Shown: in pieces, positions 1,629 through 29,523 of the stretch
Position numbering within the stretch: the stretch's first letter is position 1
How the letters are laid out: the number at the start of each line of letters is the position of its first letter
DNA from: a virus
Strand: one strand, 5' to 3'
Virus record (IMG/VR): IMGVR_UViG_3300035183_000421
Span: 1 to 29,539 of that record
DNA: 29,539 nucleotides
The notes under the pieces: generated by a model
The model's database searches: none
What the model was told of the DNA's origin: nothing
The model's input: the letters and a program-made list of their open reading frames with translations, nothing else
Made by a program: the position numbers and the translations under genes

Positions 1629-1819
1629 TTGCGCGATGTTGCACTCGCGTGCAATCGTGTGCGTGACTACGCGCACACATGCACATGCGTGAAACCCTAT
1701 ATTTTACTAGGGTTTTCGCGTGCAAAAAATTTTGCTTGACTTTGGGGCGTGGTTTATGGTATGCTTTGGGTAGAAGGTTGGGCATGGGGCCCAACCAAGG
1801 GAAAACAAGGGATAACGGT
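1629..1819 (+). promoter_or_regulatory. Leader 1: stacked inverted repeats, promoter and 5'-UTR hairpin
   Basis: In order the region shows a TTGCAC/GTGCAA dyad, the inverted repeat at 1692-1715, a GCAAAA-AA-TTTTGC dyad (about 1722-1735), a promoter with TTGACT at 1736-1741 and TATGCT at 1760-1765 (18-bp spacer), and an 8-bp hairpin GGTTGGGC/GCCCAACC at 1776-1796 close to the expected transcript 5' end. The same elements in the same order recur at 28741-28920. The segment 1798-1812, just after the hairpin, is perfectly complementary to the loop of the candidate small RNA near 27.7 kb. Confidence 0.8.
1692..1715. repeat. 24-bp inverted repeat, copy 1 of 4
   Basis: Arms AAACCCTA and TAGGGTTT flank the 8-base centre TATTTTAC. 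The core recurs with an identical centre at 28711-28730, 28793-28816 and 29300-29319, each time preceded by a GCGTGA- or GCGCGA-like string and followed by TTTTC or TTTC. It could be an operator for a phage regulator or a short RNA hairpin. Here it lies about 20 bp upstream of a -35 box, which favours an operator. Confidence 0.8.
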
Positions 1820-2911
1820 ATGAACAGCAACATACACGAAACCACCAAACGAGAGGGTGCTCCTATGGTTACAGTAGTAGCAACAGACGAACTACGCGAA
1901 CGGGTGCGCGCGGCGGTTGCCGCGACGCTGACGGGCAACGCGTTCCCATATGCGCGGCTGGTAGTGGACGGCAACGGCATGCGCGTAACGTCGCACCTTG
2001 GCCACCTGCGTTATAGCGGGACGGTGACGGTCATTGCGCGCGACGGCGCGGAGGGTGACGCTGCGGCGTTAGTTAGCGGGTCGGCGTTGGCAGAGTACCT
2101 TGAAACCGTTACGCGCGCGGGCGTGCGCATAGCGTGGTACAACGACCGCATTGTATTGACCGACGGCGACGGGGTGTTTTCCATAAGCAAGGCGGCGGGC
2201 GGAAGGGAAAGCGATGTCGCGGTAAACGCGGACGCGGTCGAAGTGCGCGGTATGCCGTGGGACATCGCCGACGGGCTAGAAGCGGACGCGGTCGTACGCC
2301 TGAGCGTACTTTACGGGGAAGTCACGGTCGCCGCATACGACGGCACAAAATACTGTGCTGGCCGCGTGGCAATATGCGGCGGGTTCGAGGACCTAAAGGC
2401 ATACGCATACATTAAGGCCGAAGCCGCGCAATTCATGGCCAAGTATTTCGATGCGGAACGGCCGCAATGCGTACGGGTCGGGGAGGAATACGTAGAGGTC
2501 ACGGACGGCGAACGCACGGCATTAATACCAAATGACCACAAAGACATTTTCCCCATAGTGATGTCGGTAGACACACATTTAACCGTAGACCACCGTAGCA
2601 TGATAAAGGCGGCGCAACGGGCGCGTGCGGCGTACGGGCACGTTCCGAACGGGCGCGCGTGGATTAGGGTCGACAAGTCGGGCGTACGGGTCGGCTCGGA
2701 CTGGTTTATAACGGCCGACCACGAGGTCGCCGTGTTGCATGTAGGCGAAGGTGTAGGACCAGCAACGTATACGGTCGACGCGGATACCTTGCTTTGGGCG
2801 CTGCGCGTGGTAGACGACGAAGACGGCAGCGGTATAGGTATCGCGGCGAAATTCGGGCGCCTTGACATTGTAGGCGCCACGAGGTTCGCCATAATACCCG
2901 AGACAATCTAG
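1820..2911 (+). CDS. DNA polymerase III beta subunit-like sliding clamp
   Basis: The protein aligns by eye along its length with bacterial DnaN. ALVSGSALAEYLETV with FSISKA resembles the domain 1 core, VAAYDGTKYCAGRVAI resembles ATDGHRLAVCSMPI, IPNDHKDIFPIVM resembles the GRFPDYRRVLP segment, and the C-terminus RFAIIPETI resembles AYVVMPMRL. A clamp encircles DNA and tethers polymerase. From ATG 1820 it has 363 residues, near the family length. This start matches leader 2, where the duplicated leader also ends in ATGAACA, and it has AAGGG 8 nt upstream. An internal ATG at 1865 with GAGAGG 8-9 nt upstream is a credible alternative giving 348 residues. Residues I expect at the polymerase-binding pocket could not be verified by eye. 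No polymerase gene is in the window. Confidence 0.72.
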   Translation: MNSNIHETTKREGAPMVTVVATDELRERVRAAVAATLTGNAFPYARLVVDGNGMRVTSHLGHLRYSGTVTVIARDGAEGDAAALVSGSALAEYLETVTRAGVRIAWYNDRIVLTDGDGVFSISKAAGGRESDVAVNADAVEVRGMPWDIADGLEADAVVRLSVLYGEVTVAAYDGTKYCAGRVAICGGFEDLKAYAYIKAEAAQFMAKYFDAERPQCVRVGEEYVEVTDGERTALIPNDHKDIFPIVMSVDTHLTVDHRSMIKAAQRARAAYGHVPNGRAWIRVDKSGVRVGSDWFITADHEVAVLHVGEGVGPATYTVDADTLLWALRVVDDEDGSGIGIAAKFGRLDIVGATRFAIIPETI

Positions 2912-5469: not shown

Positions 5470-5568
5470 GGGCGCAAATTTGGCGCGTGTGTTATATCGG
5501 GGCGGGTGGCTATCGCGGCTCCTAGGGCATTCTAGGCGGCCGTTTTTATGGGGTGAATTTAAGAAAAT
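5470..5568. repeat. 97-bp dispersed element, copy A
   Basis: Copy A is an approximately 97-bp element shared with 21017-21114 and 28315-28411, all in the same orientation. The most conserved part is GCGGCTCCTAGG, then CATTCTAG, with a CCTAG/CTAGG dyad, preceded by TTATATCGGG and followed by a T-run and GGGG. Here it lies in the 172-bp gap between the large terminase and the P60 gene. This copy carries CTATCGCGG where the others have CGATCGCGG. Function unknown. Confidence 0.85.
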
Positions 5569-12683: not shown

Positions 12684-12715
12684 AATGAACAAAAAAACAA
12701 GGGGCGGCGTATAGC

Positions 12716-13384
12716 ATGAAGCGCGACAAGGGCGCGGTCATAGACAGCGCTGGAATTGAAACGGTGCGCGGGCTAAACGTCACGGCGCAAGGGTGGGCGT
12801 GGGACAAAATAGTCGAGGCCAAACGAATCGGCGGGCTATTAAAGGGGCGGTTTGCGGTCGTGCTGCGCAATATAGGGGCTGGCGGGGCAGAGGCCGACGT
12901 TAAAGCGCTGACGCGGGACGGCATCAGTTCGCATTTTTACGTTGGGCGTGGCGGTGAAGTGGTGCAAATGGTGCCGCTGCATTATGCGGCCTGGCATGCG
13001 AACGTTAGCGCGTTCGTGCACCCACGTAGCGGGGCAATGTTCGTCGGCATGAACCAATACAGTTTAAGCATTGCGCTGGGCAATTGGGGCGAAGTGCGGC
13101 GCGGGGCGGACGGGCGGTTTTACGCGGCACCCATTCATTTCTCGCGTGTGGTCGTAGACGAAAGCATGGTCGTGAATGTTGGCGGGCTATTTTTTGAGCG
13201 GTATACGGCGGAGCAAGTCGAAGCCTTGGCCGACTTGTTAAAGCGCATACGTGCGACCTTTTCGGAAGTTGAATTTTTGCTCCGCAGGTCTGATATAGTA
13301 AGGCCTAGGATGAAATGCGACGAGCCAACGCTGGCGTTGGACATGGAACGGCTACGTGAAGAATGTGGTTATATTCGGCTATGA
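12716..13384 (+). CDS. Amidase_2-fold protein lacking zinc-ligand histidines
   Basis: The fold is that of N-acetylmuramoyl-L-alanine amidases (AmpD/T7 lysozyme type). SSHFYVGRGGEVVQMVPLHYAAWHA (residues 71-95), NQYSLSIALGNWGE (113-126), YTAEQVEALADLLKRI and RSDIVRPRMKCDEP (191-204) follow the family order. The first zinc-ligand histidine, normally in a VVxHxT block, reads VVLRN with Arg51. The one before SDI reads Arg191. Only the acidic or cysteine ligand (C201/D202) remains. It may bind peptidoglycan without cutting it. Upstream, 12685-12714 is a 9-codon mini-cistron (MNKKTRGGV) whose stop lies one base before this ATG. Confidence 0.8.
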   Translation: MKRDKGAVIDSAGIETVRGLNVTAQGWAWDKIVEAKRIGGLLKGRFAVVLRNIGAGGAEADVKALTRDGISSHFYVGRGGEVVQMVPLHYAAWHANVSAFVHPRSGAMFVGMNQYSLSIALGNWGEVRRGADGRFYAAPIHFSRVVVDESMVVNVGGLFFERYTAEQVEALADLLKRIRATFSEVEFLLRRSDIVRPRMKCDEPTLALDMERLREECGYIRL

Positions 13385-16409: not shown

Positions 16410-16448
16410 GGCGTGTGCCTGCGGCTGTCGCGGGTACACGCCTTTTTT
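16410..16448 (+). terminator. Rho-independent terminator after capsid and decoration genes
   Basis: A 14-bp stem pairs 16410-16423 with 16429-16442, including two G-U pairs, around the 5-base loop GCTGT, and is followed by six T. It separates the head-protein genes from the neck genes and would let capsid mRNA accumulate above downstream messages. Read-through or another promoter must serve the neck genes. Confidence 0.88.
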
Positions 16449-21016: not shown

Positions 21017-21114
21017 GGGCCAAATTGGCGCGTGTATTATATCGGGGCGGGTGGCGATCGCGGCTCCTAGGGCATTCTAGGCCCATATTTTTTTGGGGGT
21101 AATATGCGAAAATT
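21017..21114. repeat. 97-bp dispersed element, copy B
   Basis: This copy lies in the 130-bp gap between the convergent ends of the chaperone operon (+) and the inverted cassette (-). It begins GGGCCAAATTGGCG, with a GCCAA-A-TTGGC dyad, and contains GGCGATCGCGGC, the CCTAG/CTAGG dyad, TTTTTTT and GGGGG. The gap holds nothing else. A terminator role would suit this location, but the T-run is set off from the hairpin by several bases. Confidence 0.85.
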
Positions 21115-21135
21115 GCAGTACGGCGGGGGATTTGG

Positions 21136-21594
21136 CTATTTTGCGCGTACGCGGTTGTCGGCGTGCACGTGGTCGTCGGGGTAGTTGTATTTTACCCAGT
21201 CGAAATACTTGGCGGCAATAGGGCCAAGCACGGCGGACGGGATAATTTTGCCCGTGGTGCGGTGTATGGCGTAGAAGTCCACGGCTATGCCGCCATATTC
21301 GGGCAAGTGCTTAGACGTGCGGGATACGGCGCCACCTTGGTCGGTGTACCCAAGGCGGGCGGCAAGGGCTTCATTTTCGGACGGGAGGCGGGTGCCGCAT
21401 GTTATTTTTATTATTACGTCGTTGCCCAGTTCGCGGTTTAGGTGCGCGCGTAGTTGTTCAAGGGACACCAATAGGGTCGGGTGCACGATTACCAACCCAG
21501 TTGTTTTACTTTCAAATTCGTTTAGGCTGAAGTTCGACACAAGTTGCCCGTTTAGGTCGGTGAACAGTTTAATGTGGTTCGATTCCGTAAGCAT
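21136..21594 (-). CDS. Peptidase M15-like endolysin
   Basis: The 152-residue protein has FSLNEFES (a common M15 opening), then HPTLLVSLEQLRAHLN, ITCGTRLPSENEALAARLGY, the zinc motif SKHLPEYGGIAVDF with His96 and Asp106, and the C-terminal DHVHADNR with His144. All zinc ligands of M15 peptidases appear present. These enzymes cut peptide cross-links in peptidoglycan and serve as endolysins. The ATG overlaps the stop of the preceding 43-residue gene as TAATG, so translation is coupled. An upstream TTG at 21639 is a poorer start. Probably the active endolysin, as the amidase-like protein at 12.7 kb lost its ligands. Confidence 0.85.
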   Translation of the reverse strand: MLTESNHIKLFTDLNGQLVSNFSLNEFESKTTGLVIVHPTLLVSLEQLRAHLNRELGNDVIIKITCGTRLPSENEALAARLGYTDQGGAVSRTSKHLPEYGGIAVDFYAIHRTTGKIIPSAVLGPIAAKYFDWVKYNYPDDHVHADNRVRAK

Positions 21595-23933: not shown

Positions 23934-26900
23934 ATGGCGTTTAACGTACAAGGGGGCGAGATTCGCGTCCCAATAATACTCGAAGGAATGCAAGCGTGGC
24001 AGCAGTTGAAGCAAGCGGCGGCCAACGCGGTCAATGCGCTGCGCGGGGTCGACTTGTCGGTCGAACGCATAAAAAACGGGTTGACACGGCTGGGGCCAAT
24101 CGCGGGCAAGGCATTCCTAGCATACGGCGGCGCGGCCACCACGGTTATACACCAGATTAACGCGATAAACGAAGCGTCGGACTTTTTGCGCGCGCGCACG
24201 GGCAAAATGGGGGAAGAATTCGAGGGCGTGTTCGGCGCGGTGCGGCGGTCGTTAAGCAAGACGGCGTCGGACGTGATGACCGTGGCGGACGTGGTCAAAA
24301 TTTTGACCATTCACCTTAATTTGTCGGGCAAAGACCTAGAAGAATTAACGGAGCGGTTAACGGCAGTTAACGACGTAATGGGCGAAAACGTCGCGGAAGA
24401 ATTTGCCCGAACGGTTAAGTTTTTTGGGCTAACGCAGGACGAATACGAGGCACTGCTGAACACGGCCGTAAAAGTGTCGCAAGAAATAGGCGGGTCGGTG
24501 GCGGACGTGTTGGCATCGGCGCGCATGCTGAACCTATTAGGTCCAGCGCTGTTCACGAATTGGGAAAAGGCATTTGGGGCCATAGCAAAAGCAAAGGAGG
24601 CGGGGGTAGAAGTCGAGCAAGCGAAAAGGGCGGTGGTCGGGCTGGTGGTGGCATTGGACCAGATGGCGGCGGTGACGGGGCTCAATATTGAGCAAGTTTG
24701 GGAACGGCTTGGGGCGGTGATGGCGCAAGACACGGCGCAAGCCAAGGAGTTGCAAAAAATACTGTTCGGCAGTACGGTCGCGGGCGCCGCGGCGCGCAAA
24801 CTGTTCGAAGTGGGCGCGTTCGACCCGCGGGCTATACAGGAAGCGGGCGAAGAATTACGGCGGTCGGCGGAAGACGTGATCCACATGCGCGAGGCCGTGC
24901 TGAGCGCAGATTCCGCATTTTCGTTTTTCATTAATAACGTGCAGCGCGGGCTGGCGCCAATGGTCGAAGATTGGGGGTTTTGGGGGCAGGTCGGGCGCCA
25001 AGCGGCGAAACAAATCGGCGACGGGCTGGAATGGGTAACATCGGCGTTTATGCGGTTGCCTGGCGTGGTGCGCACGGCAATAGAAGGGTTTAGTTTGTTC
25101 GCGGCGGGCGTGTCGGCGGGGACGTTAGGGCTCGGGCTGTTGCAACGGGCGCTGGAGTTCGTCGGGCTGCGGGTCGATTTGCTAGGCACGGCGTGGCGTG
25201 CGATTGCCGCGACGTTCGGAATAGTCTGGCGGGTCGCGGGCTTTGTCGCGGCGCGGCTGACCACGGTCGGGGCGGTCATTGCTGGCGCGGCAGCGTGGGC
25301 CAAAGTGTTCGCGGACTGGCGCGAAAGCATTGCGGGCGTGGCGGCTATTTGGGACGTGCTAACGGGTAAGGTGGGGGTGTTCGACGTATGGCGCGAACTG
25401 AAAAGGGAAATAGGCGACGCGTTGGGCATAGACGTGAACGCGTTAGAGGTCAAGTTCGACGAAGCGCTGGGCGTAATTTTTTCATTCGCGGGCAAGGTCA
25501 TAGACACGTTTAGCGAATTGAAAAGCGCCGTGACGGACACGGCCAAAAGCATAGCGCAATCGGTCGCGGGGTGGTTTTCATGGTTGGGCGACACGTTGGT
25601 GTTCCATTCAATCGTGCCCGACATGGCGCAGGAAATTGTCGCGGTATTTCGCGACATGTACGGCCGGCTGGGGGTGCTGTCGCAGGACTATTTTGCCGCC
25701 GAAATTGAACGCGTGAAAAAGCAAGCGGAAGCAATAGTCGACGCCTACGAAGAAGCGGAACGGGCACGCATAACGGCCACGCGCAAAGTGCTAGAAGCCG
25801 CGGACGGTGGCGGCGGCGCGGGTGGCGCGGGTGGTGCGGAAGGGTTGAGCCCAGAATTGCAGCGGGCTATGCAGTTGGCTGGGCTAACGGCGGCGGGTGG
25901 CACGGGCGGCGGGGGCGGCAAAATGGTCGAGAAGGAGGTGGCGGTATTTTCGGCGGAAGAACAAAAGCGCATGCTGGACGAATTAACGGCCAAAACCAAC
26001 GCAATGCGCGACGCCATAGCAAACGCGGGGGAGGAGTTGGTGCGGTTCTTCGACATAGTCGGGCAGGCCGACCCATTGGCGGCGCTGGCGGGGCAAGTCT
26101 TCGACGTTGTGCAGTTGTTTGAACGGTTCGGCGGGCTCACGCCTACGGTGGACGTGTTGGACGCAATAGGCGCAAAAATTGGGGTCGCAAACCTAAACCT
26201 TGACCAAATGCTAATGCTGCACGAACGACTGACTGAAGTGGCGGGGAAATTGGGCGGGGTGTACGAACGCGTGGCGGACGGACTTTTGGAATGGTGGCGC
26301 GCGGCGCAAAAGGCCAAGAACGCAACGGACGCCGTGGCAACGGCAACGGTAACGGTAAAAAGGTCGTTCGCCGACATGTGGAAACAAATGGACGCGGGCG
26401 AGCGCGCCATGGCAATAATGGACGGCATTGGTCGCGTACTGGCGGCATTGCCGCAAAAATTTAGGAAGGTGGCGCAAGCGGCGGACGTAGGGTTCAACAT
26501 TGTGCGCGACGCGATAGAAATAGCAAAGGGCAATCTGTTGGCATTTTTCGACATTTTGGCACAAGTTTTAAGTTTGCTGGGCATTTTTGGCGACAAAGTG
26601 GAAAAGGAAAAAAGCGCGTTCGAAAAAATGAAGGACGAACTAAGCGACGCGCTGGAGGACTTTTCGCGGCGGTTTGCCGAAACGCTGGCGACTTTAGTGC
26701 GCGAAGGCAAGGCACAGTTTGGGGACTTGGTCGACTATATACTAAACAAACTGTTAGAGATAACGCTGTACTACACCATCTCGTACCCAATAGAGCAAGG
26801 CATACGGGCGGCGTTTAAAGGCATATTTGCCAAGGGCGGCGTGTTCAACGGCGGGGGCGTTGTGCCCATGGCGCGCGGCGCGGTCATAACGGGGCCAGTG

Positions 26901-27194
26901 GTCGCACCAATGGCGCTGATAGGCGAGCGCGGGCCCGAGGCCGTGTTGCCGTTAAAACGGTTCGCGGACGGGTCGCTGGGCGTACGGGCGGAAACCACGG
27001 GCGGCGGGGTCGTGGTCAACGTGTTTAACAACGCTGGCGGGGTCGAAGTAGACACGCGCACAACACGGGCGGCGGACGGGACTAGGGCGGTCGAGATATT
27101 CGTTAAGGAAGCGGTGCGCGCGGGACTAATGCGCGGCGACTTTGACGCCGAAATGCGGAGCATGTACGGCGTGCGGAGGCTAGGGTTTGCATGA
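23934..27194 (+). CDS. Tail tape measure protein
   Basis: This 1086-residue protein is mostly helical, with hydrophobic segments in the middle (about residues 380-475, including LFAAGVSAGTLGLGLLQRALEFVGL) and a Gly/Ala spacer near 625-665 (GGGGAGGAGGAEG). The C-terminal block GGVFNGGGVVPMARGAVITG, then ALIGERGPEAVLPLKR, is the hallmark of siphovirus tape measures. It sets tail length and is ejected with the DNA. By the lambda scale (about 850 residues for about 135 nm), a tail near 160-170 nm would be expected. ATG 23934 with GAGGTG 6 nt upstream is preferred over GTG 23925. Confidence 0.93.
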   Translation: MAFNVQGGEIRVPIILEGMQAWQQLKQAAANAVNALRGVDLSVERIKNGLTRLGPIAGKAFLAYGGAATTVIHQINAINEASDFLRARTGKMGEEFEGVFGAVRRSLSKTASDVMTVADVVKILTIHLNLSGKDLEELTERLTAVNDVMGENVAEEFARTVKFFGLTQDEYEALLNTAVKVSQEIGGSVADVLASARMLNLLGPALFTNWEKAFGAIAKAKEAGVEVEQAKRAVVGLVVALDQMAAVTGLNIEQVWERLGAVMAQDTAQAKELQKILFGSTVAGAAARKLFEVGAFDPRAIQEAGEELRRSAEDVIHMREAVLSADSAFSFFINNVQRGLAPMVEDWGFWGQVGRQAAKQIGDGLEWVTSAFMRLPGVVRTAIEGFSLFAAGVSAGTLGLGLLQRALEFVGLRVDLLGTAWRAIAATFGIVWRVAGFVAARLTTVGAVIAGAAAWAKVFADWRESIAGVAAIWDVLTGKVGVFDVWRELKREIGDALGIDVNALEVKFDEALGVIFSFAGKVIDTFSELKSAVTDTAKSIAQSVAGWFSWLGDTLVFHSIVPDMAQEIVAVFRDMYGRLGVLSQDYFAAEIERVKKQAEAIVDAYEEAERARITATRKVLEAADGGGGAGGAGGAEGLSPELQRAMQLAGLTAAGGTGGGGGKMVEKEVAVFSAEEQKRMLDELTAKTNAMRDAIANAGEELVRFFDIVGQADPLAALAGQVFDVVQLFERFGGLTPTVDVLDAIGAKIGVANLNLDQMLMLHERLTEVAGKLGGVYERVADGLLEWWRAAQKAKNATDAVATATVTVKRSFADMWKQMDAGERAMAIMDGIGRVLAALPQKFRKVAQAADVGFNIVRDAIEIAKGNLLAFFDILAQVLSLLGIFGDKVEKEKSAFEKMKDELSDALEDFSRRFAETLATLVREGKAQFGDLVDYILNKLLEITLYYTISYPIEQGIRAAFKGIFAKGGVFNGGGVVPMARGAVITGPVVAPMALIGERGPEAVLPLKRFADGSLGVRAETTGGGVVVNVFNNAGGVEVDTRTTRAADGTRAVEIFVKEAVRAGLMRGDFDAEMRSMYGVRRLGFA

Positions 27195-27565
27195 GCATAG
27201 TGTGGCCATTTAGTGACGGGCTTGGCGCAATGCCGCAAAGCGTAGAAGTGAGCGAGGCCCCCGATGTCCTAACGCAAACGGTAGACGTCGGCGCGCCAAA
27301 AACGCGGCTATTGCGGCGCGTAGCGGACAAAATCGTAAAGGTGCGAGTGCTAATGAACGGGCAACGGCTGGAGCAGTTCATGGACTGGTGGCGGCTGTCT
27401 ACACGGTGCGGCATGTTCGAGTTCGAATGGGTGGACGCGGTCGGGGACGGGCTCGCAACGTACAGGTTCGAAACGGCGCCGCAGTATAGTCTTGTGCGCG
27501 GCGGTCCCACGTCGGCGGCACGGGTGTGGGAGGTGACTTTTACGGCGCGAATGTTAGGGGCTTGA
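27191..27565 (+). CDS. Distal or minor tail protein
   Basis: The 124-residue protein starts in an ATGA overlap with the tape measure stop. It is beta-rich and carries LMNGQRLEQFMDWWRLSTRCGMFEFEWVDAVGDGLATYRFE, the sort of F-x-W-x-D core found in small minor tail proteins encoded just after tape measures (lambda gpM-like). It would join the tail tube to the tip. The usual next genes (P60, DUF1833-like, J) are instead at 5.6-11.7 kb. Its stop codon overlaps the -35 box of the small-RNA promoter. Confidence 0.7.
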   Translation: MSIVWPFSDGLGAMPQSVEVSEAPDVLTQTVDVGAPKTRLLRRVADKIVKVRVLMNGQRLEQFMDWWRLSTRCGMFEFEWVDAVGDGLATYRFETAPQYSLVRGGPTSAARVWEVTFTARMLGA

Positions 27566-27590
27566 TTTTGGCGGGCGGGTGTGCTATAGT
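27562..27590 (+). promoter_or_regulatory. Sigma70-like promoter for the candidate small RNA
   Basis: TTGATT at 27562-27567 and TATAGT at 27585-27590 have the ideal 17-bp spacing. The expected transcript start is about 27597. The -35 overlaps the stop codon of the tail gene. No good start codon with a ribosome-binding site follows, which favours a non-coding transcript. Confidence 0.75.
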
Positions 27591-27596
27591 TAGCGC

Positions 27597-27700
27597 GCGG
27601 AACAGTTGAAACCCGACCCATAGCGACGGCGCGGCGAAGCGTGAGCAACTCCCTACCCCTCTCCTTCCCTTGTTTTCCCTGCCGCGTCGTCGCGTTTTTT
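27597..27700 (+). ncRNA. Candidate antisense small RNA with terminator-like hairpin
   Basis: After about 26 nt the transcript folds into a 13-bp stem, 27623-27635 with 27681-27693 (one G-U pair), enclosing a 45-nt C/U-rich loop, then G and TTTTTT at 27695-27700, so it should end near 27700. Loop bases 27666-27680 are perfectly complementary (15 nt) to 1798-1812 in the sliding-clamp leader. Bases 27660-27676 pair at 16 of 17 positions with 28899-28915, which includes the Shine-Dalgarno of the 98-residue gene. The two targets sit at the same place in duplicated leaders, just after the conserved hairpin. A trans-acting antisense repressor of both genes is inferred. Transcription is unproven. Confidence 0.65.
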
Positions 27701-27880
27701 GTGTATTTTGGCCGTAGGGGCGCGAAAAAACGGCGGGACGGCAACGAATACGGGACGCGGGGCTATCGCGCCAAGGCGGGCAAAATTGCGCGGGTTCTTG
27801 CCAAGCGGTTGGGCGGAACACATTCTCGCGCGCGCGCGCGTGCGCGCGTAATCCCCAAATGTTCAACAAAGACCAAGGTA
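27701..27880. other. Gene-free stretch with alternating CG tract
   Basis: No convincing gene was seen. An uninterrupted CG/CA-type alternating tract lies near 27825-27848 and is prone to Z-DNA. An open frame through 27641-27889 gives a basic, low-complexity peptide without a usable ribosome-binding site and overlaps the small RNA. Confidence 0.6.
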
Positions 27881-28075
27881 CAAGGCTAAGACTAAGACTT
27901 AAACGCAATAATAAGAGAGAGAACCCTATAGTAGTAGTCGGGGGTGTGGAAAAGTTGCGGCCTTTTGTGGAAAACGGTCGTAACCAGTTGAAAATACACG
28001 ACTAAAGATGCCTATGGGGTTGTGGATAAGTTGTGGAAAACCTGTGGATAAGTTGTTAAAAAGTTGTGGAAAAAC
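27881..28075. other. oriC-like DnaA-box cluster
   Basis: Six 9-mers match TGTGG(A/T)(A)AA, the minus-strand form of the DnaA box TTWTNCACA. TGTGGATAA starts at 28021 and 28043, and TGTGGAAAA starts at 27945, 27966, 28032 and 28065. All have the same orientation. Start distances are 21, 55, 11, 11 and 22 bp, so the boxes are on nearly one face of the helix. An A/T- and purine-rich flank with AAGACT repeats (27881-27930) could be the unwinding element. This looks like a replication origin or a DnaA-titrating site. Which it is cannot be told from sequence. Confidence 0.75.
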
Positions 28076-28189: not shown

Positions 28190-28314
28190 TAGCGCGGGCG
28201 CATGCATGGCACGCACACACGGCGCACACATACACACGTGCGCATGCGACAGTGGCACGCACGCATGTACACACGGGCACGGCGCACACGCATAGGCATA
28301 GGGCGGCGGAAAAT
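28190..28314. repeat. Alternating purine-pyrimidine low-complexity tract, block 1
   Basis: The stretch is made of CACACGG-, GCGCAC- and GCATG-type steps that almost strictly alternate purine and pyrimidine, and the usual G excess on the plus strand disappears. Such DNA readily adopts the Z form. No gene was seen. Confidence 0.65.
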
Positions 28315-28411
28315 GGGCCAAGTGGGCACGTGTGTTATATCGGGTCGGGGGGCGATCGCGGCTCCTAGGCCATTCTAGCGGCATAGTTTTTTGGGGGCAA
28401 TACGTAAAAAT
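28315..28411. repeat. 97-bp dispersed element, copy C
   Basis: Copy C sits inside the gene-free control region. It keeps TTATATCGGG, GGCGATCGCGGCTCCTAGG and CATTCTAG, and ends in TTTTTT-GGGGG-CAATACG. Differences from copies A and B are scattered single bases. Open frames read through it on the minus strand show changes that alter amino acids, so it is not a conserved coding unit. Confidence 0.85.
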
Positions 28412-28435
28412 GGCCGTGCGGCACGGATTGGGCTA

Positions 28436-28710
28436 TTACACGCACGGCACGGTGCGCACGCGCGCGTACGTACATGGCGCACACGCGGCCACGCAGTGCA
28501 TACACGGCGCACGCATATGCACACGGGACACGCACGCAATGCGTGGCATGACTACATGCGCATGCGCGCATAGGCACGTACACGGCGCACATGCATGCAT
28601 ATGCACATGGTGCACACACAGGCATGCAATGCGTGGCGTAAATACACATGCACGCAAACGCATGCACACGGTGCACGCATACATATACGGCTCGCACGCA
28701 CATGCGCGAG
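28436..28710. repeat. Alternating purine-pyrimidine tract with degenerate tandem units, block 2
   Basis: Units resembling GCATGCAATGCGTGGC, then a TACATGCGCATGCGC-type run and CACACGG or GTGCACGC, recur loosely every 60-75 bp. They do not form equal direct repeats with unique spacers. The sequence is Z-DNA-prone and also rich in ACGT/GCATGC-type palindromes. It ends at inverted repeat copy 2. Confidence 0.65.
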
Positions 28711-28730
28711 ACCCTATATTTTACTAGGGT
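28711..28730. repeat. Inverted repeat, copy 2 of 4
   Basis: The arms ACCCTA and TAGGGT with centre TATTTTAC match copy 1. It lies 83 bp upstream of copy 3, and is not directly followed by a promoter. The gap between copies 2 and 3 has TTGCAC/GTGCAA and CGCGTAATTACGCG palindromes. Confidence 0.8.
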
Positions 28731-28740
28731 TTTCAAAAGT

Positions 28741-28920
28741 TGCACTCGCGTGCAATGGTTCGCGTAATTACGCGCACATGCCGACATGCGTGAAACCCTA
28801 TATTTTACTAGGGTTTTCACACGCAAAAAATTTTGCTTGACTTTGGGGGTTACTTTGTGTTATGATTTAGGTAGAAGGTTGGGCATGGGGCCCAACCAAA
28901 AACAAGGAAAGGAGACAACA
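28741..28920 (+). promoter_or_regulatory. Leader 2: duplicated control region of the 98-residue gene
   Basis: The order is as in leader 1: TTGCAC/GTGCAA dyad, CGCGTAATTACGCG palindrome (28761-28774), inverted repeat 28793-28816, GCAAAA-AA-TTTTGC dyad, TTGACT at 28837-28842, 18-bp spacer, TATGAT at 28861-28866, hairpin GGTTGGGC/GCCCAACC at 28877-28897. AAAGGAG at 28908-28914 lies 6 nt before the ATG. The segment 28899-28915 pairs with the small-RNA loop at 16 of 17 positions. Confidence 0.82.
28793..28816. repeat. Inverted repeat, copy 3 of 4
   Basis: Same 24-bp sequence as copy 1, with AAACCCTA and TAGGGTTT arms. It lies 21 bp upstream of the -35 box of leader 2, nearly the same spacing as in leader 1. 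Confidence 0.82.
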
Positions 28921-29217
28921 ATGAACACAAGCAAGAGCCAATCGCAAGCGACCACCTATTACACGCCGCTGATTGCGCGGTTGCCGCGCGCGAGCCGTGT
29001 GCGTAAGGCATACGAACACGGGAAAATGTCGTACGCCCGCGCGGTGTACGCGGCGAGCATGATCATCGCGCGGCTCGACGGTGCGGTGTACGACACGCCG
29101 CTGTGCACGAGCCCCGCAATGCTGCGGGATGCCGTAGAAGAATATAGCGCGCAACTGCGTGCGCGCGAGTACGAATTAAACCAAGGCAAAAGCATGCACC
29201 CGATCCCCGTAGACTAA
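28921..29217 (+). CDS. 98-residue protein of unknown function under leader 2
   Basis: The protein is helical and basic in its first half (LIARLPRASRVRKAYEHGKMSYARAVYAASMIIARLDG) and acidic later (AMLRDAVEEYSAQLRAREYE). No known domain or membrane segment was recognised. It has the best-placed ribosome-binding site in the region and its own terminator-like hairpin downstream, so it is a dedicated small transcript. It shares its promoter layout and its small-RNA target with the sliding clamp, so it may act in replication or its timing. Two of the six GATC sites in the window lie in it. Confidence 0.75.
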   Translation: MNTSKSQSQATTYYTPLIARLPRASRVRKAYEHGKMSYARAVYAASMIIARLDGAVYDTPLCTSPAMLRDAVEEYSAQLRAREYELNQGKSMHPIPVD

Positions 29218-29283: not shown

Positions 29284-29299
29284 TCATGGCATGCGTGAG

Positions 29300-29319
29300 A
29301 CCCTATATTTTACTAGGGT
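29300..29319. repeat. Inverted repeat, copy 4 of 4
   Basis: ACCCTA and TAGGGT arms around TATTTTAC, as in copy 2. After it comes CGTAATTACGCG-like sequence, part of another leader-like array, but no promoter is visible before the window ends. Confidence 0.78.
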
Positions 29320-29325
29320 TTTCGC

Positions 29326-29523
29326 AATCGGCACGGGCATGCAATGCGTGCACGTAATTACGCGTGGACGGTGCACGCATACGGCGCACGCATGCAATGC
29401 ATGGCGTGGCTACATGCGCATGCGCACGCACACACAGCGCGCGCACGCATACGCGCGGGCATGTAATGCACGGCATGAATACATGAGCACACGCACATAC
29501 ATGCATGTGTATAGGCTGGCAAT
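29326..29523. repeat. Alternating purine-pyrimidine tract, block 3
   Basis: GCATGCAATG-, GCACACAC- and GCGCGCGCAC-type steps continue the pattern of blocks 1 and 2. No gene seen. Confidence 0.6.

Follow-up and report, generated by a model that had tools for sequence, protein, structure and literature searches.

A candidate phage small RNA complementary to two duplicated leaders may be an off switch for replication genes

Introduction

Plasmid copy number is set by antisense RNAs, stem-loop transcripts that pair with a replication-gene leader. Known examples of phage small RNAs that act on phage replication genes are few. In Listeria monocytogenes, the small RNA LhrC carries CU-rich motifs, one of them in its terminator loop, that pair with the Shine-Dalgarno sequence of a target mRNA and impede translation (PMC4132741). 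In phages, c4 RNA (P1/P7) and sar RNA (P22) each block the translation of a phage gene by base-pairing at and near its ribosome-binding site, which c4 probably does via its loops, and PreS (LPR1) of lambda, a trans-acting RNA of ~88 nt, acts on the host dnaN mRNA in an Hfq-dependent manner and is reported to favour phage propagation (PMC12197685).

Here we describe a locus of an uncultured phage whose predicted small RNA is closest by mechanism to LhrC, c4 and sar, and by target to PreS; these are likenesses of action, and homology to any of them is not claimed. As in LhrC, pairing of a CU-rich terminator loop at the target Shine-Dalgarno is predicted for the phage RNA. LhrC, however, is bacterial and multicopy, has three redundant motifs of the CUCCC...UUUU type and targets a virulence adhesin (PMC4132741). 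With PreS the phage RNA would share trans action, a similar size and a dnaN (sliding clamp) target, but PreS acts on the dnaN of the host, whereas the RNA found here would act on the phage's own probable clamp, with repression as the expected outcome. In contrast to our candidate, c4 and sar act on antirepressor genes, have one target each and lie at a different position; their sequence relation to it was compared by Rfam only, whose covariance models gave no match at the gathering score anywhere in the analysed DNA. The parallel with plasmid antisense RNAs, drawn in the original prediction for this locus, holds for an RNA that pairs with a leader. It is inexact because the plasmid RNAs normally act in cis, lying opposite their targets, whereas the phage RNA is encoded on the same strand as both targets and elsewhere, ~1.2 kb from one and 26 kb from the other in the record, i.e., in trans.

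Results and Discussion

The sequence record and its relatives

The window (the whole stretch of DNA analysed, 29,539 nt) is the entire IMG/VR record IMGVR_UViG_3300035183_000421. It starts within a methyltransferase gene and lacks end repeats, and no polymerase, helicase or primase genes were seen in it; the record is probably a fragment of a phage genome. Searches for relatives with several proteins and two DNA patterns returned one contig, L008, and one distant terminase contig. The former is the nearest relative, 97% identical across 9.1 kb that end at 24161, short of the locus. No relative spanning 27562-27700 was found with six protein queries and two DNA patterns against viral contigs or in two genome scans.

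A candidate small-RNA gene

The promoter, 13-bp stem, T6 and two long leader matches of the original prediction all lie at the coordinates it gave (Table 1). In a plain sigma-70 scan (9/12 hexamer match) there was no excess over chance and the small-RNA promoter was unremarkable. Its -35 shares bases with the stop codon that ends the tail gene at 27191-27565, and TGC precedes its TATAGT, which makes it an extended -10 promoter with TG one base ahead of the hexamer. Five such promoter-like sites were found in the window versus 0.68 expected from block shuffles, an excess that is somewhat flattered because the criterion was added after the extended -10 had been sighted in both target promoters. 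Since sites of this kind front the dnaN-like gene, the gene for the 98-residue protein (gene 98) and the portal gene, the site at 27562 falls in a class that marks real phage genes. The portal promoter, on the minus strand at 23902-23867, reads ATGACT-18-CATAAT with an extended -10; the portal gene itself (23832-21730) is inverted relative to the other structural genes.

We scanned for stems of at least 12 pairs with a loop of up to ~60 nt followed by T5. This combination was expected 0.01 times per shuffled genome, and 27623-27700 was its sole case in the window. The stem includes one G-U pair, and positions 27636 and 27680 could add a fourteenth pair, again G-U. The fold of the small RNA has a z of -2.3 to -2.5, and the only + strand run of at least 12 pyrimidines (27656-27671) lies within its loop. 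Compared with an ordinary short-loop terminator, the hairpin has the stem and the T6, but its loop spans 45 nt, or 43 nt if the G-U pair forms; unlike an ordinary intrinsic terminator as it is, it may still end transcription. The promoter and the stem with T6 both lie outside the target genes and each exceeds chance, and so they point to a separate transcription unit. By these sequence features, the locus at 27562-27700 looks like a genuine small-RNA gene.

A + strand frame at 27641-27889 overlaps the small RNA; it has 82 codons, a basic second half and a codon score of +0.06, and neither an evident Shine-Dalgarno nor a family was found for it.

Table 1 Features of the candidate small RNA and its putative targets in the window.
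Feature	Position	Strand	Details
Small-RNA promoter	27562-27590	+	TTGATT 27562-27567, TATAGT 27585-27590, spacing 17, extended -10
Predicted small RNA	27597-27700	+	~104 nt; start inferred from promoter, end from T-run
Stem, 5' arm	27623-27635	+	GC-rich, 13 bp, pairs with 27681-27693
Loop	27636-27680	+	45 nt, C/U-rich, largely unpaired (folding prediction)
Antisense segment 2	27660-27676	+	16/17 complementary to 28899-28915
Antisense segment 1	27666-27680	+	exact 15-nt complement of 1798-1812
Stem, 3' arm	27681-27693	+	literal sequence check
T6	27695-27700	+	terminator-like, one G between stem and T6; also likely 3' end of tail transcript
Palindrome	1692-1715	+	AAACCCTATATTTTACTAGGGTTT, 24 bp, upstream of dnaN-like promoter
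dnaN-like promoter	1736-1765	+	TTGACT-18-TATGCT, extended -10
Leader 1 hairpin	1776-1796	+	GGTTGGGC-ATGGG-GCCCAACC; Shine-Dalgarno region after hairpin unpaired
Target site 1	1798-1812	+	covers Shine-Dalgarno AAGGGA 1807-1812, 7 nt before ATG 1820
Target gene 1	1820-2911	+	363 aa, probable DNA polymerase processivity factor (phrog_947, E = 1.5e-4)
Palindrome, second identical copy	28793-28816	+	upstream of gene-98 promoter
Gene-98 promoter	28837-28866	+	TTGACT-18-TATGAT, extended -10
Leader 2 hairpin	28877-28897	+	sequence identical to leader 1 hairpin
Target site 2	28899-28915	+	covers Shine-Dalgarno AGGAG 28910-28914, 6 nt before ATG 28921
Target gene 2	28921-29217	+	98-aa protein, all-helical low-confidence model
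Possible weak third target	12694-12703	+	10-nt match AAAACAAGGG, before amidase/endolysin gene at 12716
Extended -10 sites	1736, 28837, 23902, 27562, 18974		dnaN-like gene; gene 98; portal (minus); small RNA; inside a gene

Two genes with duplicated leaders

The leaders of the two target genes are paralogous duplicates with 89% identity overall. The 24-bp palindrome, the promoter and the 5' hairpin are near-identical between them, and the 20 nt that hold the Shine-Dalgarno have diverged. The likeness runs to the end of the hairpin, and past it both leaders retain their long complementarity to the loop. The predicted mRNAs of both targets have a stable 5' hairpin followed by an unpaired, purine-rich Shine-Dalgarno; in these predictions the loop and both Shine-Dalgarno regions are largely unpaired.

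The first target had been called a sliding clamp. A profile match to phrog_947 speaks for this identity, but it is weak and the sole match, with Pfam, NCBIfam and PDB sequence searches of the 363-aa protein empty, and the clamp is therefore probable rather than established. An alignment-free structure prediction for this protein failed (pLDDT 35). For the 98-aa protein, searches of PHROG, Pfam and NCBIfam gave no family and the helical model gave no significant fold match.

The palindrome AAACCCTATATTTTACTAGGGTTT occurs in four copies in the window (1692-1715, 28709-28732, 28793-28816 and 29298-29321; 0 expected), two of which stand exactly upstream of the paired target promoters. Five low-GC viral contigs (L002-L006) also carry the central 20-23 bp of this palindrome and otherwise showed no DNA similarity to the window.

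Complementarity between the loop and both leaders

The leaders complement different, overlapping parts of the loop. Leader 1 pairs through AGGG-AAAACAAGG-GA, and leader 2 through AAAACAAGG-(mismatch)-AAGGAGA, i.e., 9 + 7 bp flanking one mismatch. Coverage of the gene-98 Shine-Dalgarno, as originally claimed, is correct, and that of the dnaN-like gene is covered likewise. The two matches are partly one event, because the core AAAACAAGG is common to both paralogous leaders, and the CUCCUU of the loop would pair with any strong Shine-Dalgarno.

Taken singly, matches of 14-15 nt are near chance: when 30 leaders were compared with 59 kb, both strands, three other sites scored 14, and the GC-rich stem itself has two exact 14-nt matches to coding DNA. 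For complementarity to two leaders at once, the loop outscores every other one of 3,934 45-nt windows on both strands, with scores of 15 and 14; the score for the second distinct leader was at most 11 in all other windows of this set. A shuffled-sequence search, the check that the original prediction had proposed, agreed with this: none of 3,000 shuffled loops (dinucleotides kept, ungapped score) reached the double match, as no best score rose to 15 and no second score to 12 or above.

Pairing energies were also compared. RNAduplex over whole leaders, without an accessibility limit, did not single out the targets (ranks 2 and 9 of 30), which counts against selective pairing; the C-rich loop can form long bulged duplexes with G-rich DNA of any kind, and this measure was replaced by pairing limited to short accessible stretches. 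With energies thus corrected for accessibility, the leaders of the dnaN-like gene (-21.7 kcal/mol) and of gene 98 (-21.0 kcal/mol) took the top two places among 30 starts, with the third-ranked gene start at -14.9 kcal/mol. The two leaders fall within the top 0.2% and 0.4%, respectively, of random + strand windows, and no shuffled loop (0/3,000) reached both leader values, or even -18 on both. We thus find an accessible segment in the loop that is selectively complementary to the target leaders. A possible, weak third target is the amidase/endolysin leader at 12694, which contains the core AAAACAAGG; its energy (-14.1 kcal/mol) is not distinct from background.

Alternative explanations

Our combined findings suggest that the locus probably encodes a small RNA that represses both genes in trans by covering their Shine-Dalgarno sequences, which we regard as the best explanation of the sequence. 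The alternative that survives best, although we consider it unlikely, is that the hairpin does no more than terminate the tail operon, with a CU-rich loop that is incidental or serves Rho loading and with which purine-rich Shine-Dalgarno sequences pair anyway. The hairpin does stand directly after the tail gene (27191-27565) as the sole stem with a T-run there, C-rich loops bind many G-rich windows, and this loop, C-rich and G-poor, resembles a Rho-loading site. Yet its 45 nt are unlike a standard terminator, for which the canonical strong phage terminator at 16410-16442 (15 bp, 3-nt loop, T6) served as yardstick. Composition alone, moreover, did not yield the double match in the shuffles, and a terminator would not call for the dedicated extended -10 promoter ahead of the hairpin.

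It is also conceivable, though improbable, that the loop derives from the Shine-Dalgarno segment of the leader as an inverted copy that a duplication left behind, has since decayed and plays no regulatory role. The leaders are themselves duplicates, and the reverse complement of the loop segment, AGGGAAAACAAGGGAAGGAGA, resembles a common ancestor of both; the likeness, however, ends at a 21-nt core, neither the hairpin nor the promoter of the leader can be traced on the minus strand, and chance would have had to place the copy within a stem-loop that has both a promoter and a T-run. Still more doubtful is a role at the DNA level, in which the hairpin and its polypyrimidine tract would belong to a replication origin: there are six DnaA-like boxes 245-373 nt downstream, at 27945-28073, but such a role leaves the promoter, the T-run and the selective leader complementarity unexplained. 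The idea that the segment serves as Shine-Dalgarno for a minus-strand gene starting at TTG 27648 has next to no probability and was rejected on codon use, since its 181-codon open frame, despite a purine-rich stretch ahead of it, scores -0.41, in line with the antisense strands of known genes (+ strand genes, +0.13 to +0.42), matches no family and lies opposite a tail gene that has a PHROG match.

A proposed mechanism

For the trans-acting small RNA, we infer the following course, from transcription and a duplex in cells to repression and its purpose, from sequence and computation. Driven by an extended -10 promoter of its own, an RNA of ~104 nt would start near 27597, form a strong stem that leaves a CU-rich loop of 45 nt open, and end at T6. 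The loop would pair in trans with two mRNAs, whose promoters and leaders are duplicates of each other, at the unpaired Shine-Dalgarno of each and, by covering it, would block ribosome binding, such that the probable sliding clamp and the 98-residue protein would be lowered together. The purpose would be to limit the replication genes or switch them off, possibly upon transcription of the upstream tail operon, and the small RNA may thus serve to turn replication genes of the phage off. In a more specific and tentative form of this proposal, the RNA could be a joint brake on the phage's own clamp and on one further member of its regulon, the promoters and leaders of the two having arisen by duplication; produced at the 3' end of the tail genes' region, it would let structural expression shut off the translation of replication genes. 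If this is true, one RNA that fits two duplicated leaders within the same phage would offer compact control of the level or timing of replication, and such RNAs would be predictable from one uncultured phage sequence.

Neighbouring elements

The DnaA-like boxes, clustered on the minus strand just downstream of the small-RNA gene, mark a probable replication origin. Long intergenic stretches at 28200-28700 and 29340-29520 are rich in alternating purine-pyrimidine CA/CG/TG repeats. A further intergenic repeat of ~95 bp is present in three copies (5474-5568, 21017-21143 and 28312-28437) and once more in the nearest relative (L008:5967-6093); its layout, GTTATATCGGG...GGCGATCGCGGCTCCTAGGGCATTCTAGG... 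and a T-run with a CCTAG-CTAGG hairpin, is conserved between copies.
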